Below, piece by piece: positions 12,836 to 64,000 of a stretch of DNA of 64,000 bases; positions within the stretch are counted from its first letter, which is position 1; each line of letters opens with the position of its first letter. The notes beneath the pieces were generated by a model. It was not told the DNA's origin, made no database searches, and saw only the letters and a list, made by a program, of their open reading frames with translations. The stretch is from Ianthella basta (taxonomy: Eukaryota; Porifera; Demospongiae; Verongiida; Ianthellidae). The stretch is taken from assembly GCA_964019415.1 (NCBI GenBank), contig OZ025870.1, positions 3,191,908 through 3,255,907 of the forward strand, in the 5' to 3' direction. Position numbers and translations under genes: made by a program.

Positions 12836-14186
12836 TTACACGGCAAATCCCTGGAAAACACTTTCCTCTAAGCCTACTTTGGTGATAAGGAAGTTCTTTA
12901 GCTGTAGGATCTTCTTGATTGTCAAATCGGGAGGAAAGATCTTGGTCTGCATGCCAAGCGTGATGCCACTTGGAGACGACTGATGAGTTCTTAGTGCTAC
13001 TTTGCGGCACTGCTCCAGAATAGTACGGCAGGCTTGCCTAGACCTTTGGCAATAGTCATCCCAGGCTCTCATCAAATGTTCATCTTCCAGTGCAGATATA
13101 ATCATGTACAAGAGACGGCAGTCCAGTGGGTCCACGAATCTCTGGATTATATCAATGGCCTCTTTATTCTGACAGGCAGGTGAGGCAAGACGATCCAAAG
13201 CATCTTTTATGTCATGACTGTGGATACGGGAGAGAGTGGTGAGAAAGTGAATGCAGAATGCTTTCAAATTCTGTGAATTTTTGGTGTTATCCTTCATCAT
13301 CTGTACCAAAGCACAGAGCGCTATGTCCAGGTCATCAATTTGTGGGTAATACTTCACAGCCACGTGACTCACTGCAGATGGGTCCAGTGGAGCAACTAAC
13401 AGGGAAGAGGTGTCCGCTCCTCTTGCCTGCAGAGCTGTGGAGAAAAGCAACATGCCATCAATAGCTATACAAGCTATACTTGTGGGCCATTTCTAACTGA
13501 TTTCTATAGAGGGGTGGCTGTTCTACAGAGGTAGATTGCAATTATTAATGCTTTAGTACTATTTGGGTCCAGGGAGGCTGGCTGTTTTAGAGTGGTGGCT
13601 GCCTAACACGTACAGTGACCATCTTAGACAGGTCCCATTGTATAATGACAGGAGCTCTGTACGTTCTCCCAGCTACATATACTTGAACATGCGCTTACAT
13701 AACTGCCATTACATTATCACAGACATGTAGATACTTGTAAAGTATAAGTATAAGTAGCATACTGTCACATTATTTTATCACTCACATGCAAGGTCTGACT
13801 GCGCTATATACACTGTAACTTAAGTTAAATGGCACCACAGTTGTATATTAATGCTATACATGTATCTGTTGCAGGTATCGAACTGAAATAAAGCCAGTTT
13901 ATTGCATTACCTTCCTTCAGTATGTGGCCACAGAGGCTTTGCTTTTGCAGAAGAACCTGACAGAACTGGATTACTTGGGAAGGGCTACGTCTGGAAATGG
14001 AGAACAACAACTCTTCATTTTTTTCATACACGGTAGGTTTGGAACGAATAGTTTCTGCTCCAATGCGACTGAGGAGGTTCTGGGAGTAAAGCACAGCTGT
14101 GATACCCTCAGGGTCGATAGTATTGTGGAGACGCTCAAAAGCATCTTGTAGTGCTTCATATTCAGGAGCTTTCCCTAGAACTGTAC
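12836..14186 (-). CDS. Gene C: CARD plus truncated helix-strand module
   Basis: Exon 14186-13911 starts after TTAG, reads PEYEALQDAFERLHNTIDPE and carries a full CARD: LYSQNLLSRIGAETIRSKPT, SISRRSPSQVIQFCQVLLQK, GHILKEG. Exon 13434-12836 continues in phase (G|CT, ALQARGADT) and encodes the helical half of the shared module (FVDPLDCRLLYMIISAL, then AWDDYCQ), then ITKVGLEESVFQGFAV followed by TAA at 12836. In gene D the equivalent FAGF is followed by GSVVLFFYIP, so C stops just before the strands. A tentative first exon starts at an ATG near 14646 with donor GTATGT near 14610; its length could not be fixed to the base. About 300 residues in all. Likely an adaptor. Confidence 0.75.
13911..14186 (-). 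CDS. Gene C exon with CARD
   Basis: Contains the CARD helix 2-3 region NLLSRIGAETIRSKPT (compare xLLTxxExExIRSxPT in CARDs) and a helix 4-5 block SPSQVIQFCQVLLQKQSL. Acceptor TAG|GT, donor G|GTAATG, phase 1 at both ends. Confidence 0.75.
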
Positions 14187-44077: not shown

Positions 44078-44973
44078 TTAGTAAGCAGGAATGCGCCAGG
44101 GTTTTCTGGCCATTTTTCGTGCAGGTTCAGTTTCATACAATATCCCATCAGCAATTATCTCCAGCAGCTTATGAATAGGAGGTTTTACACGTTGCAAGTA
44201 TGCCTCATCATGGGTAATGGCAACAATCCTATTAAGATCCAAGAACAATGTAACAGCCGTCAAATAGGTGCGGTCATACTCCTCCTTATGTAAGAACTTA
44301 CGGACCACTTTTTCTGCCCTCTGGATATCTGCTTCGCTGTGGGTACCAAAACCATACCGTTGCCACTTTCTAACTAACTCTGTAACATTTGAAAAGCATG
44401 TTTCCAATTCTTCGGCATGAATCCCATTCTGTTTCATAAATGTATGCATTTCCCACTCATTTGGAAAACTGGATTGCAGTTCTTGCCAGTGTCTTTCATA
44501 CTCTGTAATAAGCTTCAAAAGCTGCTCACACCTATCCCTGTCACGGTGAATCCATTCATTAGCTTCATTTAACACTGCATTCTCATTTGATTTTTTCTGC
44601 ATGTACTGCAGTCCGGCTGCCATCCCTCCAGCCACTCCAGCTGCTCCAACCACTCCGGCTGCTCCAGCCATTCCAACTGCTCCAGCCATTCCAACTGCTG
44701 CTACAAGCCCAGCTGGCAATGGCCACCAGAAAATTTTATCCAATTCCTTTGCAGATTTATGCAGTTGTAGATGCCCTTTCTGGCGCTGAGACCCCATTTC
44801 AACACTATTTGCAACTATCTGATCAACCGTGCCACAGAACTTATTGAATGCTATACGACGTTTTCTATTCACTTGCCGCAGCAAATCTTCAAGCAAGTCA
44901 GAAGCTGCTCTTTTAAGCAGATCATAGCGAATCTTTAGTTCAGTTGTTTCTTCCCTTTGCTTTCTCTGTAGGT
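44078..44973 (-). CDS. Gene D C-terminal exon: Gly/Ala-rich hydrophobic segment flanked by helices
   Basis: 297 residues and stop. A helical region (DLLKRAASDLLEDLLRQV) is followed by a strongly hydrophobic stretch of about 40 residues with Gly at nearly every third position (PAGLVAAVGMAGAVGMAGAA and onward, GVVGAAGVAGGMAAG). Long charged helices come next (LLKLITEYERHWQELQ, VRKWQRYGF, LLEIIADGILY), then a basic end ARKMARKPWRIPAY. Internal repeats of the GMAGAV unit show in the DNA as 9- and 18-bp repeats near 44628-44700. The layout resembles helical proteins that insert a hydrophobic hairpin into membranes, but no family is assigned. Confidence 0.75.
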
Positions 44974-46858
44974 CTGCATGCATGAGACGGAGGAATAAAC
45001 AACAATAGCAATAAACTAGCCACAAGATGAGGGATTTGAGAAGATGAATGCAAATGTACACATGCATAAATACATATTTTGATATCGACTGATATGTTTC
45101 TACAGGTATAAGTACATTCCTTTAGAGCAATTTGCTGTGTATACACAATAACACATCAAAGATGTGTGCTCGACAGACAGCTGACTCAGCTACCCTTCGG
45201 GGTGTTTGTGTAATGTATATACTGCATGGCATGAAATTTCGGCGGTGAATTCATTCTTGCAGATTGACAGATTTGAGAGCAATCTACCTATATGTATAAA
45301 TGACATTAAAACTTACAATATACCATTATGGTATAAGTCTTGCTCAAGCGCCATAGTGATTTTACTCAATGCAAATGTGGTTAAAACTTGGCCAATACTA
45401 GAAAGTCAACCAATTTCTAAAAATGGAATAATTGTTTGCTATTTGTCTCAACCTCAGTAGGGATAGTAAGCCATGTCAGGAAAACACACATATACACTCA
45501 TAAACGTTCAGGAGCAAGAAGGGGTAGTGCAGTATTCATTGCACAGCATGTTGCAAGGAAATAATTAAAGCTGGTAACGAACATTACACTGTACCTGTCC
45601 TATGCCAGTAAATAGAGGCATGCATATTTCCAGCGAGACAGCACCATCCCTATATCTCCCTAGCTATATCGTTTCGACATTTTGTTGTATGGCTTAGTGT
45701 CACGCTTCTGGTGGTATGTTGATATGTATGTAGGTATGTATGTTTATGTAATATGTAAACTGTGGTAGTACAACAGTGCTTGCATGTATATAATAATGTA
45801 TAGATAGAAGTACTGAAGATGGGAAATTTTATTGTTGGCCATTATGTTTGCCTCTCTCATGCCGGAAGGACCAAGGAAAGGACTTTGAAACCTGCTTCCA
45901 AACATCACTCCACATGGAGCATAGGCATCTTCTGCCTTCAAAAGCTGTAGAAAAGGCAACCACACCACCACTGGTCTGAAGACACACAGAAAGCAGTGGG
46001 ATAACCAGATCTGCCAAGTTGCATTAATGAGAATGCTGGAGGATGGACCCAATGATGTAGCTACATAAGCTAACTTACTGGGGGGTGTAGGATTTTCTTA
46101 AAGGGTGTTAGCTATGCTTTAATAAGTTGATGTGTACATTGTTAATTAAGTGCAGACAATTAGATAATTTCTGTGATCAGAACACGGGCATAATCTGGAA
46201 TTTTAGCACAAGACTTTCAGTTTTAGGCTTGCAACTAGGATAATGACATCATATTGCTTCATCAAAATGGCCACCTAAAGAAAGCGAAATATTTAGCAGC
46301 TAAATCATAAGAAAACGATGTGAAAGTGAAAGGCAACTGTCTTCTGTAGTGCACCAGCAGAAGGAAACTCCAGTATCAGTACTAAATCATCCTTTAGTAC
46401 AGGTATGTAGTTCTTATGGATTCCTTAGTTGTAATATTGAAGTAGCCAGCTAGCTATGTCGGAGACTGAGTTTAGTGAGCGTGTGAGCTGGAGGTGTAGT
46501 AGAAATTTGTGTGTCTTGGCAGGTCTGTATGATAACACCTAGCAGTTTGGCTACTTAGTTCCCACGACGCTTTCAATCATGGCTGCCCGTTGAAGGACTT
46601 CAGTTCCTAGTTTCAGAGAAGTGACAAGAGGGACGTAGAACTTGGTGAGCCCCACGAATTGTGCATACAAACTTTTGCTAACGGTCTATAGCATTTAAAG
46701 CATAAGCGTGCACAGTTACCCTTCAAAATTTCCTTCAGATGGTGCACGTAGTGCGGTTGAGTGAACTGCCTTATGCCACAACAGAACCCTAGCCGCTGCA
46801 ATAACTGCGGATATGCTGTAAGCACTTGCAGCTATCTGTGTGTTTACCTACATGCGTG

Positions 46859-46889
<31 letters not shown>

Positions 46890-49800
46890 TTGTGTGCGCA
46901 CTTGATTGAGTTCTGGCAACTCTGAGAATGTGCAAACTGTATAAGGTACGTAAGTTAAAGTACTGTACCGTTGTGCGCATGTGTGTGAAATATTTTGATT
47001 CTATTCATGTGCGCTTCAATCATTCGTGTTCATTCTTGCCTATGCAGTGTGTTTACAAGTGTGTTGATGAATTACTCAATTTAGTTGCAATAGCTACTAT
47101 ACATTTATAACACAGCATCCACTGGAGGGAGCAAGAGTTTCGAGTTGGGGCAGCAGCCCCCACGAGTTTTTTCAACTCGAAATACATGTTTGAAAATTGA
47201 TAAAATACCTCTAGTTTTTGAACTTATTATGGAGTGCAAGCTGTGCATGGCTGATCAAAAAGATTATGCAAGTGTACCCAGAACACACACAGCTATACAG
47301 ATTGGTAGTTTCAATTCAGAGGCCACATAATGACAGGGCACCAATATATACCACATACGTAGTGCCCATTCCCAAAGACTGACGAGGCAGTTGGAAAGGG
47401 GAAGAGGTGCTTAACAATTAATACAACAGATCTAGTAGCCGATCCTCTTCTCGGCAATAATAATATGATGTCACTGACATGGCACGAAGGGTTGTGGTCA
47501 AAGCCTGTACCTGTTTTTTCCAAGCCACTGGAACTTGATGCTCATTAACCTGCAGTTGCCATGGAAGTAAGATTATTTGTACCCTGTCACACATTCCAAC
47601 CAGGAATTGTGTGAAGACAGTTCGATCTTTACATCCCTAAAGGGACAATAGTGCACACATGGCTATATCGCCGTGTGTAGACTATAACTTTCACTTTCCT
47701 AAATAAACCCGTTTACACAGACGCTTTAATCCACCTGGCTTGAGTATGAGTTGTATTCACATGGCAATTAGAAATTGTACTGTAGGATGGCATTTAGTAT
47801 TGCTGATGGTGTCGTTGTCATTCACCTACACTCAAGGAGACTGCACAGGCAGCAGGAGAGACGATGACGTACAAGTGCTAAATGGAGACTTCACTTCATG
47901 CTGCAGGAGATAAAATTGCATGGAAACAGTGTTGCACACTATATTTGCATCTGCTCATCATCTGCTTAAGGCTAATGCTGTGGGTTCCATGTGAGAGCAC
48001 AGCATAGAGTCTTTGGCCCAAATGTCTAATACAGTTCAATCTCACAGTCTCTTAACATATCACAATCCATCAATTTAATCTAGATTATAAGTTAGGCCCA
48101 CTTGTAAACTCGTACACCATGTGTGTGAATATAACTAGTCTGAATTCAATTTGGATCTACAACCACTTTAATCCGGGATATAGGGTGGTTTTAATCCGGT
48201 GTGAAAGGGTTCATAGAGGTAGCTTGAGGATGAAGGTTTGGTGGCTGATTCTACTTTGGCAGCTCTGTTCTCAGAAGAGTACAGGAAGATTATTGGAGAT
48301 TACAAAGATACAATGGGATGGCAGCCTTCAGGCCTCAATTCCATACGTGCCCTGATTGTCATTTCAGGAACAGAGCGATAAAACTATCTTGTTATAAATG
48401 AGCTGCCAAGTTCCAGTGGCTCAGAGCAAAACTGGTTTTAAAACAACTATGTTAATGGATAGGCCAACTGTTTGAGTGGGTCCCACACCAATATATCATG
48501 TCAGCTGGAGAATTGCAAGTATGAGAAGATCCTGTTGCCATGGTAACATGCTTTTAAACAATGACTATACACCTCAAACCTTAGACCAGCATTCCAATTG
48601 CTTCACGTGTGATTCTAAATCCCATACACATACCCTGCAGGCGGAGTGTGAGTGAAGTTTGCATGATGTCATCACAGCCATTTTGTATCTGCTGTAATAA
48701 GCACTTGTTGCTGCAAATTATTCCTTCAGTTACCATCAAATGGCCTCCCAATGAAGTTCGGAGTAAGGGCAGACAGCAAAGGAGTGTAGTTCATGGGTGC
48801 TATAGAGTTCTTCCATTGGGTTCCCACATCGTTGTCAGTTGCCAATGATGTGGATGTCGTCAAGAGGAGTTAATGAAGACAATTGAATTAGTGAACATTT
48901 TTTGGATCTGTATTACTTAAATGCTGACAAATCAGAGTCTGGGATGATTTAAACCATCCAGCGCTTGGGTGCTTTGCACCCTCGAACTTCATGCTCTAAA
49001 TCCCACAAATACCTCTTGGGTGGCATTTAACTATAGTATCCGCTCTATAATTCGTCATTCTAATTTTTGTCAGGGAAACAATCTGCTCAAGTGTACTCTA
49101 ATGTGTGACGAATTTCCTGTCTCTCTAAATTCCACAATTAGCCTCTAATTTTCACCATGAACAGGAAGCGTTCTAAATATTCGCCGGAAATGCCTTTAAT
49201 GCGGCTGCGACGGCTAAGGAACAAAGCATTGCCATAAACTGCAACAGCATAACTGTCCTCCTCGTTGCCAGGTTCTTGCTGACAGTCGAATTCGTCCCCG
49301 ATTGCCGGAGCCCAGATGTCCTTGTACACATGGTAGGCTCGCACTGCTGTTCACAAGGTCAATGTGAAGGAGGCCACTTCAGTGAGGAACGTCCCTACTG
49401 AAAAGCGCTCTAATGTTGGGACAACGCTTCTCATGATACCAACTTTAATGAACAAATTGAAATTGCCACCGTTTCGGCCAACTGCTCTGGCCTTCTTCAG
49501 GGCAAATAGTGAAATAGTAATATGGGTACTGTCAACTTATAGGCATGAGTACAATTAAATGGTATCAAATGTCACTGGATGTCACGCACTCGGGCCTGGC
49601 CGCAATTTGACTCGTCCTGCCTCCTCTTCAGAGTAGCTAACCAACAGCCAGGTACCTATACCCAATGTCCAGGTTGAGGAGCTCCCCATCCGACATCTGG
49701 ATGTGAAGGGCTTCTTTCAGCTGGAGTTCTTTGGGCCTCCTTGCTTAGTCAATCACCCTGGTGCCTTCCCACTCAATGTGGTGGTGGTGCTCCCAGGCAT

Positions 49801-52800
49801 GCTCTACCACTGCTGACTTCTCCACCATTCCTCTGCCATGCATCTTGGTGATCCTTCATCCTTGCCTTGAGCCTCCTGGTTGTTTTCCCATTGTAGGTCT
49901 TCCCACAGCTGCAGGTAATTTGGTACACGACCTTGGATTTCTTCTCCACTGGAAGTTCATCCTTGACCTTGGTCAGTGTGTACCAAAGAGACCTCCCGGA
50001 TCTGAAGATCACCTTTAGGCCGAACCTCTTGCAGACCATTCTGATGTCCTTGCTGACCCCTGAGACATAAGGGAGCATCACAAGCCACCATGAGCTGGTG
50101 ATGTTCCTGGCCCTATCATGTAAGTATATGACCAGACCTCTCTTAACGTGGTGAGGGTGATGGGACTGGAAGGCCAAATAGCGGTCGGTGTGTGGTGGCT
50201 TCCTGTACACTGTAGCATCTAGGCTGCCATCCAATGCAGCCTGGATGCAGGATACAATGGGCCTAAGGGGAACCTCAGGTTTGTGCACTTTGGAGATCCT
50301 GGGAGGTTGGCTGCCAGAGGGTCTGAGTTCATTGTACAGTTTGGTGGGGATGTCACTACTTCTCTCAAAGCTCTTGAGCTTGTGGGGTCTTTCTTCAGAT
50401 GCTTGTAGGTGGAGATGTCTAGCATTCTGTTCAGTTTGGTGTTGTAGTCTTCCTTGGTCATGACAACTATGGCACCGCCCGTGCCCGCTGGCAGGATCAC
50501 CTCATCTTCCAGGGCTCTAATGTTTGTCTGTAAACTCTAAATATCTGTCACCTTCAACAGTCTTCTCCATTCCAACTCTAACTGCCTCAAAAGATGAAAT
50601 TTTCGCTGCACTAGGGGTGACAAAGTTTAAGAGCGGATACAGTAATACTTATACAAAATCCATACCTTACCTCTTAATTGCAATACATCTGAGTTGTTTA
50701 TGGAACCTTAGACTACCCCCTCCTCCCATAGGACCCCTTTGTTGTGCTAACAAATTCCACCCATTTTAGTACCGTATAGCGAAAAAATTTCACTAAGGTT
50801 TAATGTTCACGATTTTCGCAATTTGACCAAATTCGCAAAATTTCCCTTCATGAAATTTCTCCCTTATCCTTATAATTATATGCAAACGTCATAGTAAGAT
50901 GGCCACCACATAGCGCAGAAGTGATTAACCATTTAAGTGCTATGTTTTTGTGCTGTGCTCAAAAATGCTCTTCAACTAAGTAGTTGATCTGCCAAAGAAT
51001 TCTTTTGGAGGCTGCTAATCGCAAATTCCGATAAATTTTCCTGCTATACAGCACTAAGCCCAGTTTGAAGCAGATTCCTGTGTATATGGTGCTCAGCAAT
51101 CTATTGCTCTAATCAGACAGCGTATAGATTTCATGACTACAAATAGCTGTTGGGAGAAAAGATAAGCAACAGAGGCTGTAGAACAGCTACCAAGACAACA
51201 CCTGACATGGAGACCGTGAATTGCCCGCAAAGGTAGTGCCAAATGTAGCGCTGTGGTAGCAAGAGAGCGCAAGAAGAAGCCTGTATCAGAAGATGATTTC
51301 ACATCTACCAGAAGATGGTAGATGTGAAATTATGAGGTAATCACAGCAGTGGGGAGCCCAGTGGAATGGGGCTCCCTTATGGTCTGGTGGCTGATAGTGA
51401 TCGTCATCTAATCATAGACACAATCGGAGCCATTACCATCCATAGACATTGCAATGGAAAATGGCACAAAAGATAGGGGCTGCTGCCGGGAATCGATTCC
51501 AGGCCTTCTGGATTTAGCCATCAGCACTCTGCCACTGAGCTACGACACCCCACAGCATCCAACTCCTTCCGTGCTTATATACTGACTTGCTCGTAGTGAT
51601 CCCGTTGAACCCACCACCTTTCTTTTGTGCCCTTTGCTGTTTGAAAGGTCTACGAATGGTAATGGTCTTGATTGTGTCTATGATTAGATACGGTCACTCT
51701 TGGTCTCTGGACCATAGGGGCCCATTCCACTGGGCTCCTTGCTGAGTGATTATGCTCATGGTTCCACATTGTCTATCAAAATAGACCTATTTTGCGTTTT
51801 CGCGTAACCGGAAGTAACGAGCAAGGAAAGGTGAAAGAGGGTCTAGCAGAGGTCATTAATATTCATAATAAGGTCTTTCGTACTTCGCAAGCAACACGTA
51901 CTGCTGTCTGGCTTGCTAGACCATCCCACCCAGGTAAACCGGCTACGATTGCTCTGCAGTGTAGCGAGTCTGTGCAACCAGTCAGTTAGCGCAGTTAGGA
52001 ACTGAGGATGGCCAAACCACTGAGCTCTGTATACGCTGTCTGCAAGTTGGCCATTCCCAAAAACAATTAAGTATCGCTTGCAGCGCAAGTTTTCCCGAGG
52101 AGGCGGCCCGACTAAGTTGTACCATCAGCTGAGAGGAGTTGCTGGCGCTACTAAGAGTCAAGGAACTTCTTCGCAAGCTGCAGTACGCCTCTGCTCCCTC
52201 TCCAATGAGAATAAGCCGTCAGAGATTGACTAGTCGCTCGCAGAAATGACCTCTGTTGTCTCCGGCTAAAACTGAAGTCTCCCCTTTTGCCAAAAGACAA
52301 GCTTCTGGTTCAGGGAGCACCCAAGAGCCATCAGCAACGCCTGTTACTTGCCGCAAGTTATTTCCAGGAGGTTCAAGAATCCCTGTGCATTCTACCATTT
52401 CACGAGCAGCTCGAAGAAGCACTGGGTGACTTGAGATAGCGTTCATCCACACAGTGAAGAGTGCCGCCATTACTGCTCGCTGCAACAAAACCGTTAATCT
52501 TTAACTAACATAGAGGTGTCGACGAGGTGCTGCTACTAGTTGGATCCAGCTAGTTGATCTGATTGGTCAATCGGCTATGAATATTAATGACCTCTTTCGC
52601 CTTTCCCTGCCCGTTACTTTCAGTTACGCGAAAACGCGAAGGAGGTCTAGCTTGATAGACTAGGTTCCACACCAACCACACACCACATACTGCAACTGCA
52701 TGCACCTTATTAACAAGTGACCATGTCTGTTTAACCCTCTAGCCAGCACAAGCCAATATTTTGGTTATACCAGTAAATGTTTGCGCTGCCTTTAGTGTTT

Positions 52801-55800
52801 CATCGTTTCTGTTCGCGTTTGGTACACTTAGACCATGTATCAACAAGGAAACATTAGAATATAGGGAAAACAGTGCACTGAAAAGTAATGCTATACTGAG
52901 GTAAACAAGAGATTACGGAAAGAACACGTTTTGTCAAAATGAAGAATGACCTACAGTAAAGTTGGTTTAGTTTGTTTCTTGTATGGAACCGACAAAACAA
53001 TTAAGGATCTATGCGAAGATAGACAGATCGAAAGTATCAGCAGAAGGTACAGCCTTGCTCCGTTCTAACCAGCTCCTCTGAAAGAAAGTCGTTCCTTACA
53101 CCAAAATATTGCCTACACATGATCACGTGAAGGTAAAAGTAACACAATGAGGATGGAAGGGGTTAAGGGACCTAACATATACTCAACATGTACAGAAAGC
53201 AATTTTAGACTATACAACATGAGAAGGAAAGGGTATTCTAAAGACAGTCAATATCTACCACCTCCATTCACAGTCATGATAATAAGTGTGATCAATTATT
53301 ATAGATGCAAGAAATTAAATGACTACATGCCACCATTACATAATTACACAATCTTACCAGAAGCTGATGAAATACTTGCTGATTCCAGCATGCCTACAAG
53401 GTGAGACTCCTTAGTATCTGCAGTGCTGCTACTGGTGTCCAGGAGTGCTTTTGTCAGGTCTTTAAATTGCTCTACTGTTTGGGAGAAGCTTGTTAGCTTC
53501 CTTTCCAATTCCTGTTGGACAGTCACCAAAATTGCTACATGAATGCATCTACATATTACTAACCAGTTCATGCACTAATGATATCTACATGAAATCATTC
53601 ACAGGTAAGCACCAACGATCACTTTTGCATACATCATTATATTGGGCATGATTAACAAGCAAATTTTTCGGCTATAAGACTTCAACCAAAATACCAACTT
53701 CAGAGAATCCCACAGCAGTAACAGCCTTCTGCAGCAACATATCTTACCTGGCCTTCTGATCATGCCAGAGGTGTGCAAAAAGTGTGAAATCTTTATTGGC
53801 ACAGCTTGAGCCCAAGTCTGCATGCAGTAACTTCTTAGGCACAGGGATATGCAGTCAGTCCAGCTTCGCTACAATCTCATTCACTGATTCTTGAGGCGCT
53901 AAAAGCGAACTGTATTCGGATTTAGGTATTCATATGGCTTCATGCTCATAATCATGTATGCATGATTGTATATTAGTATCATTGCAAATGGCGATGCAAA
54001 CGTCTTTCTTTGCAAAGCTTAAAATCATCTCTATTTGCATTTCGCCGTCTATCAATCAAACGAAATGAGTTCATGAACATGTGTTAAAGAATTGTGCATC
54101 CACAGGGCCTTCTGATAGTGCAGAGGCTGCTCTTTCTAATGATACTAAGCATTATTGCCAGCTTCGCCTGAGAAAGAGGAAAAGGCTAATCTTTAAGGTT
54201 ATATATTCAACTCGTGGTTTTGTGGTTTTGTGTATACTCCCACATTAAGCCTGTTCTAGAAAGACTTTGCGTTCTTTGGATACACGGCCAAATGCAAAGA
54301 AAGATTATTTTAAGCCTAGCAAACAGAGACTGCGTTGAGTGCAGCCATTTCACAATATCCGTTCGTGATAATTGGAGCTGTATTTCGCAGAAGAGTCTTT
54401 TGCTAAGCTCTTTACGGCTATCACTCTATTAAGTGATAGTACTGCAGTAGAAAGCTTACCTAACTATTCTCCTGCAAGGTACAGTCCCAAATAAATCAGA
54501 CGTTGAACAACCCCTTGGCCTATCAGGGCCGGGGGATGGTTGGCTCCTTTGCTCAGGCCATTCGGAATGCCAAGGCATCGTTTAAGCAATACTTGCTAAT
54601 CATCCCTGAATCTTGAGGGTGTAGCTATACAACAGACAGGATTCTAGCTAGTCAGGATAAAAGAAAGGGTAAGGGGAGCTGGTACATCGCTCAAATTTGT
54701 GAGGCTAGAAAAATTTTGGTTTTTAGGTCCTCCAAGATTGATTCTGGTGCACTCTGTGAGGTCCAAAAGCACATTTCCGTCATACTATAACTGCACATTA
54801 ATGTCACATTTTCCTGCAAAAGTCAAACATTGGGAGAAAGGGGAGGAAGGTTGAATATTTGTGGGGAAGCTTCCCTCCTCCATTCTCATGACCTTTAGGG
54901 CTACAAATTGTAAAGAATTTCCGCTTAGAAAAGCCTAAGTGCTAAATAGCATCCAAAACGTTCAAAGATTATGGAAAACAACCCAGAAAGTGTCATCTTA
55001 GGATATAGGGCATCCTTCCTTTTAGTCTTTTAAAGTTATCCTTGGTTTGGCAGCCATATTGTTCTCTAAACACGTCATATATAGTTAATCAGCAAAATGG
55101 CAGTGTGGACCTCGCAACTTAGTTGTGCCCGCTGCTCTCTTGAATATTAGCCAATTCCCAAAGTGGTTACTAACTGCAATTGGATTACTCCATTTCAAGG
55201 CAGTTAGATTCTTCAATTCAAGATCTCCTTGGTAACTAATAGTAAGTTTCTGATGGCTAACAATAATTTAGCTCTAGCTGACAATTTCCTAGCTGGATCA
55301 CAAAACTTTGGTCAGGCCATGGCCGGAGTGGTCGGAGCTGTTCCCTCGACCCTGCCTATGAGAGACAATCGAATCATGGCATTTCCAAATTGGGTAGCTG
55401 TTTAGCCAGCACAAAGTAACATGTACATCCTCATCCAGAATGTTATGAGATCAAAAGCACCAGCAAAGCATTGGACAGTTTGGTAGGGGTGCTTTAACTG
55501 GATGACTTGCTGGTGTGGGGACTTGAAACTTTTGCAACCCCAACAGTCTATGGCATTGTGATGAATCTTTCAGGCCACCAACAATGCTGCATCCCCAACT
55601 ATCTGAACTATTGAACATACACGGAGAAGTTGCTAGCAAGTAATTCGAGTTCCAGAGCACCCCAGCGCCCCACGAGTTTTTTAAAACTCAAAATACTTGT
55701 TAAACTTTGGCTATCTGGACTAAAGAATAGGCTTAGAGGGTATGAATGCTAACCAACATTACCATCTTGTTCACTGGTAGCCCTAGGCACTGTGTACAGA

Positions 55801-58800
55801 GCCCAGAAAAGACTTAAGAAGTAATGTGAAGCATTCTTGATGACAAGAAAAACAGCACTCTTCTGTTTGGCATTAGGCTACAGAAAATGAGTTATAATCT
55901 GGGGTAGATCTATCTTCTTGTATGCTGCCTTTTCAGCTTAGGAAATGGTGCAGGGTGCGAGTTTCATACTTCATGTAAATTCAGTAAAGATTGTGTCACT
56001 ACCATTGCTGTTGTGGTTTCCAGTACATGCGAAGCAACAAAGTGTACATGCACATTAGATACTCACTCTGACTCTGTCTAGTGCTGTCTTAGCAAAAGGA
56101 TTCCTCTCCAAGAGTTCAAGTATCCACTCCTGTTCTGTCAGCCAAGAGTCAATGCAGTATTTCAATCTCTGCTGAAGCTGGTACAGTCGTTGAGAGATTG
56201 TGCATTCCAGCACCTTCACCTTTTCCACAGTTTCCATTGCCAATCTGGGATCCATAGCTAATATCTCTTCTCGTCCAAGAACTTCCAACTGTTGTTTATG
56301 CTTCAAGACTGTTTGTTTGATGTGCTACATGAGATGAAATGTGGTTGTCAAGTATCGCACACACCTTGAAATTGCACCTGACTACATGGATAGCTACAGT
56401 ATGAATTGCAATGAATGCAACTTCCATATCAAACAAATTAAGAGAGAACATTTAATAGCAAATTGTATCCTGTGAATGTACATGTATGTAGATTACACAA
56501 TGAGAATGAGGGCTCATTGAATATACATGCTGAGGGCCAAGCCTGAGGACGGGTACAGTTAATGAACACAAATTCAAATTGTACAACTGGCTTATACCAG
56601 AATGCTATCAATGAGTTTCAATCATTGAAATGGTAGCCGTACAAAGTTACTTGGTGATGAAGATGAAAGAAATGTTTAAGAGCAGAGAGTTGGTGGCCAT
56701 TCATCATTTCTTATTCAGCATGGCAGAGGTCAGCACAGAAGAAGAAGGTGCCAGTAAAGAGAGTTTTTGGTTTCAAAAGTTACATTATTTAACACTTCAT
56801 ATGTTTTTCTATCCAAGTTGGTTTCAATATATCTAGCATGCAAGTTTTCAAGTCAGCGAGGAATTAGGATGTTTTTGAAGAAGCTTTCACACAGTACATT
56901 GCCAAGAAGGACGTAGCACACGTCACTAGTGCTGGCTTGCATAGTGGTGTCTTCCCTCGGGCCTGAGCTAACAAAAAACTGCTGCGTACAAATCATTGTT
57001 AACATGACAGCTTTATACCCATACTGTAATCGAACATGGACAAAAAACGAAGCGAGGACACCTTTAGCAACGGTCCCCTACAGCGCCGGGAGCGCAGTGA
57101 AGCGTTCAGTGACGTTGGAGCCCCACAGGTGTAGGTACCTTCAGTAGAAAATGAGCCTTTTATGCAATCTACAAGCACGCAGGAGGAGCTAAAAATTGCA
57201 AAATTGCAAAATTCCTTAGACAAGGTGCATTCATGAAATGTACATACCACAAAAAACTTGTATGCATACAGTATAGGTAGTCTGGCTTCTGACCCACCTT
57301 GGGAAATGGATTAGAAGCCATTATGATGACACACACTAAGTGGTGACTTCATACTATATGCACAGATAGACCTCACATACACGTTGACTGTATTCCAGAT
57401 AAACAACTTTGACTGTGTGTTATATGGTATAAGTTAAATGATTATTAGAGTGACCGCAGCATGAGGATCAGAGGCTGCTCAGCCAGGGTTGGCTTACTGG
57501 TCACTGAAAAATGTTACACCAATTAACTTGCAGGTGTAAGTGGATAGGTGAGTATACATAGTGACTATACACTAATTGATGCATAAAAGTGATTGCCTTA
57601 AATGGTACATTTAAAGAATAAGGGATATGGTTGTATTATCAGTATTTGTTAAGAGGAACTTACGTCTGTCATAAGAAGAAAGATATGTAAATGAGTGGTA
57701 TGAGGGTATATGACAAATATCTAAGGTCGCACTGTTCAAAGCCAATCCACATCGATATTCCCTTTCTGATCAGAACAGTGTGGAATGAACAATTCAAGGG
57801 GCTACAGAGTGATTACAGTCCTAAGGGATTGGCATGCAATCATAGCATTTGACTTCAGCGCCACTATATAGTTTTTAGATTTAAGAGTTCGTATGGCTTC
57901 ATGTTCATAATCCTGTACAGTGTATATATATTTCTGTCATTGCATATGACGGCGCTCACATCATTCTTTACAAAGTTTAAAATCATCTGTAATGGCGTTT
58001 CGCTGACTCTCAATCGAAGGTAATGTGTTCAAGAACGTGTGTTAATAGAGAGAACTCGTAAAAAGCTTAAGGAAAGACACTTCTGCGAGATACAACATCA
58101 ATTATCACGGAAGGACGTTGCAAAATGGCCGCACTCAACGCACCCTAGTTTGTTAGGCTGAAAATCATCTTTCTTCATACTCGCCATACAGCCCACAGAA
58201 GGCAAAGCCTTTATAGAACACGTTTAAGCAATATTATTGTAGTAGAAAGCTTACCTATTATATGTAACCTATATACCTATTCCTCTGCGAGGTACAGCCC
58301 CAAATACAACAGAGATCGAATGACTCGTTGGCCCATGAGAGACAATTGAATCATGGCATTACCACTTAGGGTAGAATAGGGTAGCTTTTTTAGCCTGCGC
58401 ACTCCTCCTACAGGCACAAAGTAACATGTACATCCTCATTCAGAATGTTATGAGATCAAAAGCACCAGCAAAGCATTGGACAGTTTGGTAGGGGTACTTT
58501 CACTGGATGGTTTGCTGGTCTGGGGATTTGAAACTCTTGCAAACCCAACAGTCTATGGCATTGCGCTGCATCTTTCAGGCCACCAGCAATGCTGCATCCC
58601 CAACTATCTGAACTATTGAACATACACGGGGGCTAGCAAGCAGTTCGAGTTCAGGGGCACCCAAGCACCCCACGAGTTTTTTAACTCAAAATACTCATTT
58701 TAATTGTCACCTGACCATGCCCAACCCCTCAAATACTTTAATTCACTATGATCTGAATCGTCTCAATGGTTTCTTTCATTACCAATCTGCCTGGAACTGT

Positions 58801-61800
58801 TGTGTCTGTTACATCCAACTTGCAATGTGTTTCATAACATGGAAACGACTCTCTTGTGCTTTGGCTATGGACAGGTACATACTCAATCAGCATTCACATA
58901 CCCTTTGACATTATAGGTGTTGGAGCATGCTGATTCATCCCAAGTATGTATAATGGCTACCATGCTCTGGCCCACAATAATTATGTTTCTGCATGGGTCA
59001 TTTTCAGGTACCAATCAGACACAGTACTGTCTCTCACATCGGCTGGTAATATTGCCCATTGTCAAGTAAGCAAACAGTTGTGGTTACCTCTATAAACTTA
59101 CATTTTGCTCATCAATCTGTTTGCATACAGCACCAACAGTCATTGCAACAGTACCCAGGCCTTTCTGTTTCACCTCAAGTTCGGCAACTTGGGCTACAGC
59201 AGCATCCATACTCCTCTTCTTTGCCTCTGCATCCATGGTAGGTGGTCTTAACAAAACCTATAGAGAAGGAGGTATGGCAAAGTTGACCAACATGAAGGTG
59301 AACATTTTGACCTTGAGCTGTGAGCTCCTTTATAAAATGTATGATTGTACGCCTCCTTCTCAGTCAACCCAAGACATTGCAACTGTGCAGTAGGCAGTGT
59401 TGTTTGAAGACGCACGAACCAAATCAGAGCTATTATTCGCCACCAAGAAATTATGTGACTCATCTGCTCAAACTAATAAGTAATTGCCAGACTCCTCTTT
59501 GATCTAATGTCATTGTCTATTGGTTCATTGAACGTTCAGTAACTAAGGCACTTCTGCCATTCTGACTGACATCATTCAAGCCATGCCAAGGCCCCTTCCA
59601 CTGCTCCCTCAGTGGAAGCACAAAACTAGAAACAAGATATATAAGGGACTGGCAACATTATGCTCCTGTATCATTGGTGATCATAAGTACGTTCATATAA
59701 TGCATTGTTTGTTTGAACTTGCATGCTGCCTATTGTCATTTGTATTATCGTAGCTACATAGATTAAGGACAAACAGGAGTTCTAAGTAGATGCAGAATAC
59801 AGCTAGCATGAGCAGTCACTGAGATGATAATCTCAGTGATGGAGCATGTTATGTGCTCTGCACATGCACAAGCGCGCCTTCTAAACCAGTGGTGTCTCAG
59901 GAGACTGAGGGGGCAGGAGCCCTACTGATAGGAAGAAGTGATTGCCCTCCCTTGCTAGTCATCACACAATCAGAGTAAAACACCTGCCAGTGTCTGTGGC
60001 TCTTCCATCTTTGTATGAGTATCTAGCACAATTTCTCTTGGACATAGATCGCTACTACAGTGGAGGCTCCAAGTAATCACTATACGAGCCAAGCTGCAAT
60101 TGAGTCATACCAAGAGTGTACTCTTGGTCATACCTCCAGCCACCATCTCAGACGTCAAAGCATTCCAGTGTGGACTCCAGACCCAGCATTAATTATAACA
60201 AAGCCTGTAATTGAAACAAATTTCATATTCTATACTTGCATGGTTAGGTTTAGCTTTAGATTTAGGTTTGGTTTAGTGTTAGGATTAGAGTTTGCCAAAT
60301 AATATCATTATTATGCAGTGCAGCATTCCACTTACATGGTGTGTAGGATCTAATTTCACAGGATGAAATTTCCATTAATAGCCAATTAGAGAGGCATGCA
60401 ATTCATAATCGTAGCTTCGTGAATGGTCGCTTGCACGGTTATTTAAATTATGCAATGAATTTGTATATTGGATGTGCAAGGCACAAATATTTTGTGAGAC
60501 TTCATTTTTGCGAATGCCTGCACAAGTGGCTAGTTACTTGGTACATGTTTCTTCTTGTCGCAACATCCTTCTTTAATACTGTACTGCTTCTTAGCGAATA
60601 GCAACCCAAGTCAGGCATTGCTGAGCCCTCCTCACATCATGAACATTGGCTTGTCACTATGGAATATGATTATTGCAGCTGGAATGTGCTTCGTGTGAAT
60701 AATAGTCAATGTGTGTATTGTGCACACGAATGTGTATTATAAATTGGAAAGAAATTGTATGCCATGCCACACAGCTCCCTACTAGCTACTGGTATGTCTA
60801 CGCAAACAATTTTGCAGTGGTATGCCTCACTTGTGGCAAAGTGACACAGACAAAGCATTGTTGCCATCTACATAGGAAGACATGCAAAACACAGGCTTAG
60901 GGTAGAAATGATGCTAGCACAATCTGCTCAGGCTTATTTAATACCCGCATAACAGACACGATGCACAGCATTAGTTGCCACTGCTTTGAATACCCTCGTG
61001 GCACTAACACAGCATGAGGACGTCAGAAATACTTCACTCTTATAATTAATATAATAGTATGCTGCCCTTAATCTGCCCTGAGATATTATGCCCTGAATAT
61101 TATACAGTGTGTGTGCTACATTATTGTTAAAATATATGTTGCGTTACTACTTGGCTTAATCTGACTAGAGCACACCTATAGTTGTGCCATGCTATGTATG
61201 TGGCCTTACCTGACCACCTGGAGCAATGGCAGTTGGAAGAGTTCTGAACAAGGATGCAGTCAGTTAATTAGCCTAATTAGATGGCATTTAGTAATAGCTA
61301 GGTGCTTAGTGATTTTGGTATAAATTTGCCAATCATCCTTAATTATAATCTATTCCAGTCTGTTTGTTTGTCTGTTCATGTGCGTGCCATTAAAAGTGGG
61401 CATCTGATTGGATGGTGCAATCATTTGACCGTAACATGGCACTCTGGACGCATGCATGTACCTTACAGCCAGCCGTTTCTACAACACTCTGTGTTCCTCA
61501 GGTTGGGTCTCCTTAGCGTCATACACTTGGGTGGCAGTGTCCTATTATTTCTTCATGAGAGATCCAGAAATGCTCCAGCTGCCCACAGGCAGATACTTCT
61601 ATTTCACTATGTTGGGTACATACATAGCTAGATTGGCTGTCAAAGTTCTGGGTTGCTGATTGCCTTCTCTTTAGCAGAAAGTAAGCACCAAAAACCTCGC
61701 ATTTTTGGCTGCGGCACTACCTTGCTGGCTAAAAACCATAGTTCCAAAATATGATCATTGCTATTCATTGTACACACACTTGCAATTGTGAGTATCCTAT

Positions 61801-63901
61801 ATATGCATGTACACGTGTGCATAACAGAGGCAAACAATACTGGCAGTGATATTGGCAATATATCCAGGCAGTACATATCACTCAACGAAAGCTGGCCAAA
61901 TGCTGATGGATGGCTGGGTATGCAATGCAGAACTCGTAGTTAGTTAAGTGTATCCACACAAGCAAACATGCAAACTTGCCTTGCCAGTAAGCACATCGAA
62001 GCTGAAATGGCCCTCCACCTTCACATTGACCATCTTCACTATGCGAAAGACTTCTAAGGATGCTGGAATTTGTGCCGCTGCTGTCAATACAGTATCCCTC
62101 GGGATGTAGAAGAAAAGGACAACGCTTCCAGGATTAAACCCTGCAAAAATGGCTGTACTAACACCCAGCTTATCCACAAGGAAAGGCTTTGCTTTGAGGA
62201 CCTCATGCAGGGAATAGCTATACTGATCCACTTCCAATTTCACTGACATGTTTACACATTGTGGTGGAGGCTCAGGCCTGATTGACCGTGCTCTGCATTC
62301 CGACAAGCATACAGTCACCTCCTTTTTTACCAACTGCTCATAGCTTTCCATTTTCATCTTCAAGTTCTCAACCTCGAGGTACAGCACCACAAACCTAGTA
62401 AACTCAAAGTTGAGAGGGTCCCAGTATCTGCGGATTGTGGTGATCAAGCCATTGGCAGAGTCTGGGAGTATGACATTGATATGTTTTGATTTTAACTTAT
62501 CTTCAACGCACTCCTTCAATTCCCTGAGTTGACAATGGTGTAGGGCTCGAACCACTCTACTAATTTCATTAACAAGTAAGATGAACTGATCAGCAAGTCT
62601 ATCAATGACTGGGTACTGAATTTGCCACTGATCAGAAGGTGCAACCTCTTCATATGCACCTACAAGTAAACAGTGTAGGTAATTAATGCAGTGTTAATGA
62701 CTCCTACGCACAGTTACTGCCTGTGTCTAAGCCTTTAGTCACTCAACAATTGTAGGGCAATGTTGGCTTTAACGTGCACAACTTGCCTATAGAAATCATG
62801 TCCTAAATCTCGTAATGAAGAAATACCAACTTTGAAGGGATGAAACATATGGCCTGGACAGGAATTACCATTTCTCTGACCTAGGTTACCTATTCTGCTG
62901 AATACACAGATGCTCTCACGGGCAGACAGTTCATTGTGATGTAGCAGGGACGGCAATTTCAAAGTGTATATATATAGCTTTCCCAAGTCTAGACATTGAT
63001 TGGCTGCTGAAGCAGTATGGTTCTAAAGGGTATCCTCACAAGTCACACTATTAATCAGAACACATTTGTGGCTGTTGCTGCATAATTAGCCATTTTCGGC
63101 TTGAATGGATGAAACATATGGTACTGACAAGGGAATTACATACGTACTTCCCCCCAGATTACTCCATGTAGCTGTTCTGCTGAAGTACACTGAACATATG
63201 CTCACATGACAATGGGTAGGACGTCCATTGTGATGTAGGTAGAGATAGCAACTCCTATATAAGATTTTGAATTTAGATTGAAAAAACGCAGTCTACTGCA
63301 AGGGTGCCCACACACATCTACAGATCCACAGAGTTATTCTTGTCATGTACTGTACCATGGATGAGATTGTCTGGTGCTTTAAAATGAATGAACAGCGACA
63401 ATGCAATCATTGTTCATACAGTGCTTTCCTTGTATATGTTTTACTGTAATACTTTAGTATTAGGTGGCATTTTATTGCAATATGTTAAAATAATGTAGAT
63501 GGCACACCCTACTACCAAAGCTAATGAATTTAATTAAATTTGTTGCTGACACAAAGAGCAATTGTACTTACTGCCAGTTGTCTGCAGCTCCACTAGATCA
63601 CCATCTTTTTTCCAGTTCAGGATATTCCTCTTGATGAAGGCGCTGGCCTCAGATCCCACTACCCTATGCACTTGCAATATAAGGGCATTCCATGTCCTAG
63701 GGCCATTTCCACAGTCTTGTTTGCCATTGATCCAGTCCTGCAACATCTCTCTGCAGCATTTCTCTGGGTCATCTCTGTTGCCCTTTTCCTTGTTACGCAG
63801 TGTAAAGTCTGCCGCTCCAAGTGCTAAGCCTAGATTATACCATGAATTGGTGAGTCGAGGTATTGCCGGCAGTAAAGCATTCAGTGAGGGCTTTGAGTCA
63901 C
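44078..63901 (-). CDS. Gene D: death domain / helix-strand module / coiled coil / Gly-rich hydrophobic C-terminal protein (5' end outside window)
   Basis: Exons in transcript order: 63901-63572 (death domain), 62659-61980 (module), 59257-59102 and 56324-56067 (helical), 53511-53358 (coiled coil), 44973-44078 (C-terminal exon with stop). Phases match at every join: 1-1, 1-0, 0-0, 0-0, 0-1, 1-stop. About 823 residues lie in the window. The intron after the module exon has a GC donor (AAG|GCAAGT). A 70-nt exon at 53817-53748 joined to a longer form of the next exon (from 53534) would also keep frame. The last intron (8.4 kb) is full of mobile DNA. Inferred role: a death-domain protein whose C-terminus could insert in or remodel a membrane. 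Confidence 0.78.
46862..46897. repeat. (GT)n microsatellite
   Basis: Short GT tract in the last intron of gene D. Confidence 0.8.
47120..47205. repeat. Element end with CCCCACGAGTTTTTT motif
   Basis: TTTCGAGTTG...CCCCCACGAGTTTTTTCAAC with AACTCGAAA forms a hairpin-like end. The same CACGAGTTTTTT then AACTC(A/G)AAATAC text closes the repeats at 55705 and 58690. Confidence 0.4.
48510..49035. repeat. Dispersed repeat with hairpin (copy 2)
   Basis: A diverged relative of 23745-24180: CCTGTTGCCATGGTAACATG, GATTCTAAATCCCATA, then GCGCTTGGGTGCTTTGCACC and CTTCATGCTCTAAATC. The terminal hairpin is more decayed than in copy 1. Confidence 0.55.
49138..49344 (-). pseudogene. HIRAN-like domain fragment
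   Basis: Reads AYHVYKDIWAPAIGDEFDCQ then EPGNEEDSYAVAVYGNALF, the pattern of HIRAN-type domains (VYKDIWxPxxGExLxCxxExxNxxDxYAVAV). It lies alone in an intron of gene D beside a Penelope remnant, so it is probably a captured or decayed fragment. Confidence 0.55.
49390..50520 (-). mobile_element. Penelope-like element remnant with GIY-YIG endonuclease
   Basis: Reads ILPAGTGGAIVVMTKEDYNT, a frameshift near 50390, then KPEVPLRPIVSCIQ joined directly to AALDGSLDATVYRKPPHTDR. The RT core between these blocks, including the catalytic Asp motif, is deleted near 50228. Then comes VVYQITCSCGKTYNGKTTRR (GIY-YIG), another frameshift near 49825 and VVEHAWEHHHHIEWEGTRVI. Downstream at 49502-49460 is CUGAAGA-GGCC-loop-GGCC-GAAACG, a hammerhead-like core (CUGANGA). 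Confidence 0.8.
51297..51329. repeat. Perfect 13-bp hairpin
   Basis: TTTCACATCTACC and its exact reverse complement are separated by the 7-base AGAAGAT. Confidence 0.7.
51353..51750. mobile_element. Foldback element with tRNA-like centre
   Basis: 51353-51448 and 51655-51750 are inverted repeats of about 95 bp (GGAGCCCAGTGGAATGGGGC and its mate). Between them, minus strand 51553-51480 reads TCGTAGCTCAGTGGCAGAG (box A-like) and ATCGATTCC (box B-like). Acceptor and anticodon stems do not pair well, so it looks like a tRNA-derived SINE or decayed tRNA rather than a working tRNA. Confidence 0.5.
51771..52663. mobile_element. Terminal-inverted-repeat element of about 0.9 kb
   Basis: Left end CTATCAAAATAGACCT... 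and right end (reverse complement) CTATCAAGCTAGACCT... pair over about 95 bp, including GTTACGCGAAAACGC and ATGAATATTAATGACCTCT. The interior has two unassigned minus-strand ORFs (52219-52488 and 51982-52176). Non-autonomous DNA transposon likely. Confidence 0.6.
53358..53511 (-). CDS. Gene D coiled-coil exon 5 in window
   Basis: Reads ELERKLTSFSQTVEQFKDLT, then Ser/Thr-rich LLDTSSSTADTKESHL. Starts in phase 0 after CAACAG and ends in phase 1 at GTAAGA. An alternative start at 53534 is possible with the 70-nt exon 53817-53748. Confidence 0.6.
53880..55705. repeat. Dispersed repeat, long copy
   Basis: Its ends match 57840-58690 in the same orientation: GGCTTCATGCTCATAAT, TAGAAAGCTTACCTA, GTACAGTCCCAAATA, then the 3' block from GAGACAATCGAATCATGGCA to CACGAGTTTTTT. 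The middle (about 54530-55360) is present only here. Confidence 0.6.
56067..56324 (-). CDS. Gene D helical exon 4 in window
   Basis: 86 codons, phase 0-0. Reads LKHKQQLEVLGREEILAM, then QRLYQLQQRLKYCIDSWL. Leucine heptads suggest a coiled coil. Acceptor ATGTAG, donor GTGAGT at 56066. Confidence 0.7.
57840..58690. repeat. Dispersed repeat, internally deleted copy
   Basis: Same ends as 53880-55705 but lacks about 0.8 kb of its middle. Ends in CCCACGAGTTTTTTAACTCA. Confidence 0.6.
59102..59257 (-). CDS. Gene D helical exon 3 in window
   Basis: 52 codons, phase 0-0. Acceptor TATAG, donor AAT|GTAAGT. Reads MDAEAKKRSMDAAVAQVAEL, then QKGLGTVAMTVGAVCKQIDEQ. Amphipathic helix or coiled coil. An internal ATG is in frame. 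Confidence 0.65.
61480..61659 (+). other. Possible exon of a multi-pass membrane protein
   Basis: After an AG at 61499-61500 the frame reads GWVSLASYTWVAVSYYFFMR, then PTGRYFYFTMLGTYIARLAV and stops at TGA (61659). Two hydrophobic segments are visible. It faintly resembles the C-terminal part of CDP-alcohol phosphotransferases. It lies opposite to gene D within its intron, so a stray fragment is as likely. Confidence 0.2.
61980..62659 (-). CDS. Gene D exon: complete helix-strand module
   Basis: 226 residues. Helical half: YPVIDRLADQFILLV, then RRYWDPLNFEFTRFVVLYLE and MKMESYEQLVKKEV. Strand half: FLVDKLGVSTAIFAGF, GSVVLFFYIPRDTV and MVNVKVEGHFSFDVLTGK. The pattern matches gene C (helical half) and copies A and B (strand half). 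No named family is assigned. Confidence 0.78.
63572..63901 (-). CDS. Gene D exon: death domain
   Basis: 110 residues. The core reads LPAIPRLTNSWYNLGLALGA, then KCCREMLQDWINGK, TWNALILQVHRVVGS and AFIKRNIL. This is the death-domain pattern (W-x-x-L-G-x-x-L-G, then C-x-x-M-L-x-x-W, then TWxxLIxxL). Acceptor TTAG at the right edge; donor GTAAGT at 63571. Confidence 0.8.
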
Positions 63902-64000
63902 CTAAGATGGATCAAGGATAATGTATGGTTTTGCTAAGACAATGGACACAAATGAGGTGCACATGGAACGTACCACATGCTAATTGTCAGCCTGCAACTT

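Follow-up and report, generated by a model that had tools for sequence, protein, structure and literature searches.

Results

The 64,000-nucleotide stretch of the sponge Ianthella basta that we analysed (contig OZ025870.1 of assembly GCA_964019415.1, positions 3,191,908 to 3,255,907; hereafter the window) carries on its minus strand a gene, here called gene D, whose six exons (E1-E6) join into one open frame of 823 residues closing in TAA. Coordinates are positions in the window unless a contig handle (C3, C4) is given; L numbers denote single loci. In transcript order the exons are:

63572..63901, minus strand: E1, exon for a death-type domain (entry and exit both in phase 1)
61980..62659, minus strand: E2, helical region and TRADD-N-like core, the latter at about 61980-62270 (entry phase 1, exit phase 0; donor GC)
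59102..59257, minus strand: E3, coiled-coil-like exon (phase 0/0; counterparts in paralogues P1, P2 and P3)
56067..56324, minus strand: E4, coiled-coil-like exon (phase 0/0; found in P1, P2 and P3 as well)
53358..53511, minus strand: E5, coiled-coil-like exon (entry phase 0, exit phase 1; found in P1, P2 and P3 as well)
44078..44973, minus strand: E6, last exon, apolipoprotein L (ApoL)-like domain (stop TAA)

Every acceptor has AG, donors are GT except for the GC donor of E2, and exon phases agree at 5/5 junctions. This bears out a preliminary description of the locus, made from the letters alone, that had proposed an in-phase six-exon gene linking a death-type domain to a hydrophobic last exon; both order and phases are repeated in paralogue P3. 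The basic tail that it ascribed to E6 was also found, and so were the charged flanks, which a low-confidence model shows as helices. Because E1 opens at a phase-1 acceptor and its frame has no Met ahead of the death domain, at least one further 5' exon is expected beyond position 64000, and the complete protein probably extends N-terminally beyond the 823 residues.

Searching the 209-Mb genome with E6 (E <= 0.01) returned gene D and three other places, P1, P2 and P3, on one contig, with E6 identities of 47% (P1), 41% (P2) and, across two parts, 45% and 42% (P3). P3, which lies 1 Mb from gene D and spans 30 kb, has E1-E6 all present in the same order and orientation (E1 86%, E2 62% identical), with phases matching those of gene D and a GC donor likewise present after E2. 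P1 has E3-E6 in phase, preceded by a divergent E2-like exon; a death exon was looked for at P1 and none was found, and an open reading frame upstream of it (L024), read by eye as CARD-like, was dropped for want of a Pfam match. P2 also has E3-E6 in phase, the 5' edge of its E3 being placed at the first Met, where no acceptor was identified. In P1 and P3 just 0.5-0.6 kb separate E5 from E6, as against the 8.4-kb intron of gene D, the upper limit of its intron lengths. P4 (L040, C3:3591254-3595615) combines an E2 that is 91% identical with 15 residues of E1, and convincing E3-E6 were not found within the 50 kb examined there, so it is apparently a truncated copy. In alignment A1, rows L011 and L012 include about 10 in-frame intronic residues ahead of the exon and L010 is shortened at both ends. 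Simple counting estimates of the ratio of nonsynonymous to synonymous change (dN/dS) are 0.31 for E1 (gene D versus P3), 0.54 and 0.30 for E2 (versus P3 and P4, respectively) and 0.47-0.58 for E6 over 6 pairs, whose synonymous change is 0.84-1.07 per site.

As for the front end, E1 scores 21.9 bits (E 2.0e-4) against the death domain model PF00531, whose cut-off is 22.6, and E1 of P3 scores 20.9 bits (E 3.9e-4). E2 has at least 79 genome matches at E <= 0.01, counting E2 itself, an expansion that fits the sponge origin of the DNA. From 10 of the 79 matches, including the E2-like exon of P1 and excluding L032 for a stop, alignment A2 was built. The TRADD-N motif, described in part of PMC8195603 as a tiny residue plus Ser in the turn between strands beta2 and beta3, has its Ser in 10/10 of these members and a preceding Gly in 9/10. 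When PF13820 (TRADD-N, NCOA6) was run against the genome, its one match at E <= 10 (E 4.08) fell on an E2 relative that is 25% identical to gene D E2 (E 2.1e-16) and that reaches 15.2 bits (E 0.019; cut-off 22.5) against the same model by hmmscan. The E2 C-terminal core was modelled in E-H-E-E-H-E-E order at low confidence (predicted local distance difference test, pLDDT, 49); Foldseek with this model gave nothing at E <= 0.001, and among its 50 listed matches RRM, aspartokinase regulatory-domain and PII proteins are numerous, whereas TRADD is absent. What had been described as a 'helix-strand module' has, in the low-confidence model, a strand-helix order compatible with an RRM-like fold and is, through the Gly-Ser turn and the weak PF13820 link, best read as TRADD-N-like. 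A second E2-related exon lies in the window at 12836-13492 on the minus strand (E 3.9e-6).

Within E6, three features matter for what follows:

44609..44734, minus strand: hydrophobic stretch of 42 residues that may correspond to the membrane-insertion domain of APOL (aligned with ApoL relatives of the same genome)
44626..44699, minus strand: 18-bp minisatellite underlying a glycine-every-third-residue period (4.1 copies, 89% matches; period missing in 3/3 paralogues)
44216..44266, minus strand: later hydrophobic helix with Asp, tentative counterpart of the APOL pore-lining Asp (MAFFT column 307)

The stretch is free of D, E, K, R, H, N and Q and has 11 glycines, 8 of them in a row at exactly every third residue, an arrangement that 1/100,000 shuffles reaches; the GxxGxx hydrophobic segment of about 40 residues noted earlier is therefore real. 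As a family signature, however, the spacing fails. With an 18-bp repeat beneath it and paralogues that lack it, we take the glycine period to be a local DNA expansion, private to gene D, that overlies a conserved hydrophobic region: the uncharged run extends over 51 residues in P1 and 60 in P3, both without the period, and the TAG...P turn of P1-P3 is kept in part in gene D. MAFFT column 307 has D in gene D, P1, P2 and L047 (an ApoL-bearing relative described below), G in P3 and P in a second such relative, L046, whose frame stops there. This late Asp may be the counterpart of D348 of APOL1, the pore-lining residue that, according to part of PMC8358165, is conserved in human APOL1-6.

E6 of gene D has no convincing family match in Pfam and none to any ApoL model. 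Queries with E6 of P1 and P3 each returned 12 further places at E <= 1 beyond the family (best E 1.4e-5 and 3.2e-7, respectively). The ApoL model PF05461, run against the genome, found 15 places at E <= 1, 12 of them above its cut-off and 13/15 on contig C3 (the places lie on C3 and C4), and by coordinates these coincide with 11/12 of the second-tier places of P1 and 12/12 of those of P3. Two second-tier places, L046 and L047, were retrieved, and L048 was added from the PF05461 scan. Aligned by hhalign, the four E6 sequences reach 95.1% (E 3.3e-8) with L046 and L047 and 96.4% (E 1.3e-9) once L048 is included, while a control with reversed sequences, built from E3-E6 and not from E6 alone, gave 10.6% (E 0.0029) over 12 columns.

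How far such scores can be trusted is illustrated by the bacterial dynamin-like LeoBC (PADLOC), a candidate relative that we rejected: its models match 3/4 real sequences (9.3e-5, 6.5e-5, 0.031) but also 2/4 reversed ones (1.0e-4, 2.0e-4), and E-values near 1e-4 are untrustworthy for helical, Ala/Gly-rich proteins such as E6. Since reversed controls reach about 1e-4 here, the case for ApoL leans on the coinciding coordinates and on the reversed hhalign control. Judged by these, E6 is a remote homologue of ApoL, reached through intermediates in the same genome; we file it as ApoL-like, and not as an ApoL member, because 0/4 family exons pass the PF05461 cut-off. Matches of E6 or E2 to Collagen, DUF3837, holin, SseC, spectrin and the like were judged composition-level and set aside.

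The intermediates themselves have other front ends. L047 (C3:9067300-9069300; 3-1946, minus) encodes 648 residues in one open frame that runs from an AIG1-type GTPase end (19.1 bits, below the cut-off of 27) through a coiled coil, seen by eye, into ApoL (28.7 bits, E 1.1e-6, above the cut-off of 25.9). L046 (C3:2168400-2170000; 227-1600, minus) is 54% identical to it, with ApoL as its best Pfam match (E 0.0043, below cut-off). E6 and these AIG1 + ApoL proteins have 10 invariant columns in common, including R63, G66, D78 and F169-P170. L048 (C3:7873800-7876700) has a TRADD-N-like module that is 44% identical to gene D E2 and, 1.3 kb past it on the shared strand, an ApoL exon (37.5 bits, E 2.4e-9); donor and acceptor between the two are, by eye, both of phase 0. 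From these adjacent same-strand exons we regard L048 as a second TRADD-N + ApoL locus.

Discussion

With slightly better than even confidence, we read gene D as a signalling protein of the Death-domain/TRADD-N type with a divergent, ApoL-like and membrane-acting C-terminus. What has been observed is how the gene is built, its paralogues and hydrophobic stretch, the remote ApoL homology via relatives, and another locus at which ApoL follows TRADD-N. The mechanism that we envisage, and to which our confidence extends, would start with an upstream sensor that fires, upon which several copies of the protein might come together through their death domains and TRADD-N-like modules; the coiled-coil-like exons E3-E5 could then relay this assembly to E6, which would be kept soluble at rest and whose hydrophobic hairpin, perhaps together with the later Asp-bearing helix, would insert into a membrane. 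The target may be the cell's own membrane, which would mean death, or that of an intracellular microbe or vacuole. Assembly, switching, insertion and the choice of membrane are all things that we infer, as is membrane permeabilisation by gene D triggered through death-fold assembly. Of the coupling between death-fold assembly and membrane insertion suggested in the preliminary description, one part stands, namely a single gene that links both types of module and is conserved in P3; insertion has become more likely because E6 is remotely related to ApoL, whose human members insert into bilayers (PMC8358165), and the role of executor is one that gene D may have.

The same description knew of no family with this layout. 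The parts taken singly do have known relatives, the front end resembling a sponge Death + TRADD-N unit (PMC8195603) and the tail being ApoL-like. According to parts of that paper, the sponge Amphimedon has 357 TRADD-N proteins, most of whose architectures comprise 1-3 death-type domains, TRADD-N and a variable C-terminus, with ankyrin repeats or SH3-LRR as the commonest C-termini besides kinase, MATH, SH2, PDZ, caspase, PNPase and HD. Gene D shares with these NCOA6-clade proteins the N-terminal death-type domain, the TRADD-N-like module with its Gly-Ser turn, the variable C-terminus and, as seen for the E2 family, a large expansion within one genome. It differs in that ApoL is not among the Amphimedon C-termini named there, the terms 'apolipoprotein l' and 'pore-forming' being absent from the paper's main text. 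With APOL1-6 (PF05461), gene D has in common a hydrophobic insertion segment between charged helices and, tentatively, a later hydrophobic helix with Asp, yet it is missed by the Pfam model and is fused to Death and TRADD-N-like parts. The AIG1 + ApoL proteins (L046, L047) resemble it in a coiled coil, seen by eye, that runs into an ApoL-type hairpin, but have an AIG1-type part in front where gene D has Death/TRADD-N. Among the literature matches listed, no title or abstract opening described Death, TRADD-N and ApoL in one protein, preprints and most subscription journals being outside the scope of that search.

Several of our own data weigh against this view of gene D. On the ApoL side, 0/4 exons of the gene D family match the PF05461 hidden Markov model directly, a genome search with E6 of gene D returned none of the ApoL places at E <= 0.01, so that the link runs via P1 and P3, and the hhalign alignments contain few sequences (4 and 2-3). 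Moreover, hhalign stays at 95.0% with the hairpin columns shuffled; the signal sits in the flanks and the homology therefore rests on these rather than on hairpin composition. The hairpin region is itself uneven, with the stretch of P2 interrupted by D, D and R and the best 19-residue hydropathy lowest in gene D (1.86, as compared to 2.33 in P1, 2.21 in P2 and 2.02 in P3). The late-Asp correspondence rests on one MAFFT alignment that has no human APOL in it, and the hhalign alignments stop before this helix; the AlphaFold2 model of E6 is of low confidence (pLDDT 44; predicted template modelling score 0.35) and was not used for a fold search. As for the front end, E1 stays under the Pfam cut-off, E2 has no direct PF13820 match and the 10-member E2 profile found no TRADD chain in PDB. 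The start of gene D lies outside the analysed sequence, where the 5000 bases past the window end are N.

An ApoL-like tail need not kill. It may instead anchor or remodel a membrane and so place the Death/TRADD-N platform at an organelle, with any killing left to other proteins; gene D would then be a membrane adaptor rather than an executor, which we consider rather unlikely but worth keeping in mind. Parts of two APOL reviews (PMC10937811, PMC11726835) do stress the control of membrane dynamics, the commonest Amphimedon C-termini (ankyrin repeats or SH3-LRR, in the sections of PMC8195603 cited above) fit an adaptor, and the gene D hairpin is just moderately hydrophobic. Against this speaks the candidate pore-lining Asp, which is found in 3/4 copies and would be superfluous for a plain anchor, albeit on the strength of that one alignment. 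That low hydropathy, together with the minisatellite over the hairpin and the only partly retained TAG...P turn, might also befit a degraded or inhibitory copy whose hairpin was replaced by the repeat and which now blocks or tunes active paralogues. Such a fate seems improbable to us, for the remainder of E6 keeps an open frame, is conserved and shows some constraint, and E1 and E2 are likewise constrained.

Descent of the tail from bacterial alpha-helical pore-forming toxins of the ClyA/HBL type is an idea to which we give very little credence. Both do have long helices on either side of a hydrophobic hairpin, and the hairpins are similar in length (63 residues in AhlB and 54 in NheB, as given in PMC6602965, versus uncharged runs of 42 in gene D, 51 in P1 and 60 in P3), and profile searches of PDB with the E6 family gave matches to HBL L1 (E 7.4 and, with 215 profile positions, 0.15), AhlB (0.26, 0.37, 3.6) and SmhB (7.4) that lie at or across the hairpin and depend on orientation and column order: two controls with shuffled columns and a reversed one gave 26 matches, 0 of them of this type. 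None of them is significant, though, and the same searches score designed helical proteins (E 2.2e-4) and TIP20 (E 0.0059) better; no ClyA/HBL family is among the Pfam matches listed for E6, and one scan of bacterial genome contigs (24 pattern matches) and one of viral contigs (32) confirmed no relative of the tail. The toxins are bacterial and without significant sequence match to gene D, and ApoL accounts for the family with better scores, so that this origin, once displaced by the ApoL link, was rejected. Finally, E1-E2 and E6 might stem from separate genes that our model has joined by chance. Introns as long as those of gene D, a gene model drawn up from sequence, and P4 with its E2 devoid of convincing E3-E6 could feed such doubts, yet an artefact is barely credible given that P3 repeats order and phases, that E5 and E6 lie so close together in P1 and P3, and that L048 has TRADD-N followed by ApoL.

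Most of what is known of APOLs comes from vertebrates, where they act in immunity, form channels and remodel membranes. If our reading of gene D as a death-fold protein with a membrane-acting tail is right, a chain that combines Death, TRADD-N-like and ApoL-like parts suggests that in an early-branching animal death-fold assembly leads directly to ApoL action on membranes; this bears on how APOLs were first wired into signalling and makes gene D a compact protein for testing it. According to PMC8358165, human APOL1-4 give rise to cation conductances and APOL6 disrupts bilayers, and in PMC12091997 the immune GTPase GBP1 exposes bacteria to killing by APOL3. The AIG1 + ApoL frame is a suggestive single-chain echo of this GBP1-APOL3 pairing. 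Tentatively, and with more doubt than conviction, one may picture ApoL modules early in animals as direct effectors of two immune switches built into single polypeptides, that is death-fold/TRADD-N in the gene D family and L048, and AIG1-type GTPases in L046 and L047. The gene D protein could then unite in one molecule the roles of a death-fold signalosome and a pore-former, and human GBP1 + APOL3 could be a later, split version of such an arrangement.

Further open frames were seen in and near the family. The 8.4-kb E5-E6 intron of gene D has one at 49773-50501 (minus strand) with a weak GIY-YIG match (17.3 bits, cut-off 22.6), judged by eye to be a Penelope-type retroelement remnant, and the E4-E5 intron of P1 (C3:3834763-3838790, L018/L019) holds what look by eye like gag-pol frames of a retrotransposon. 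Upstream of gene D, past the N stretch, L014 (6722-8476, minus strand; C3:3261721-3263475) has open frames that by eye are P-loop GTPase-like.

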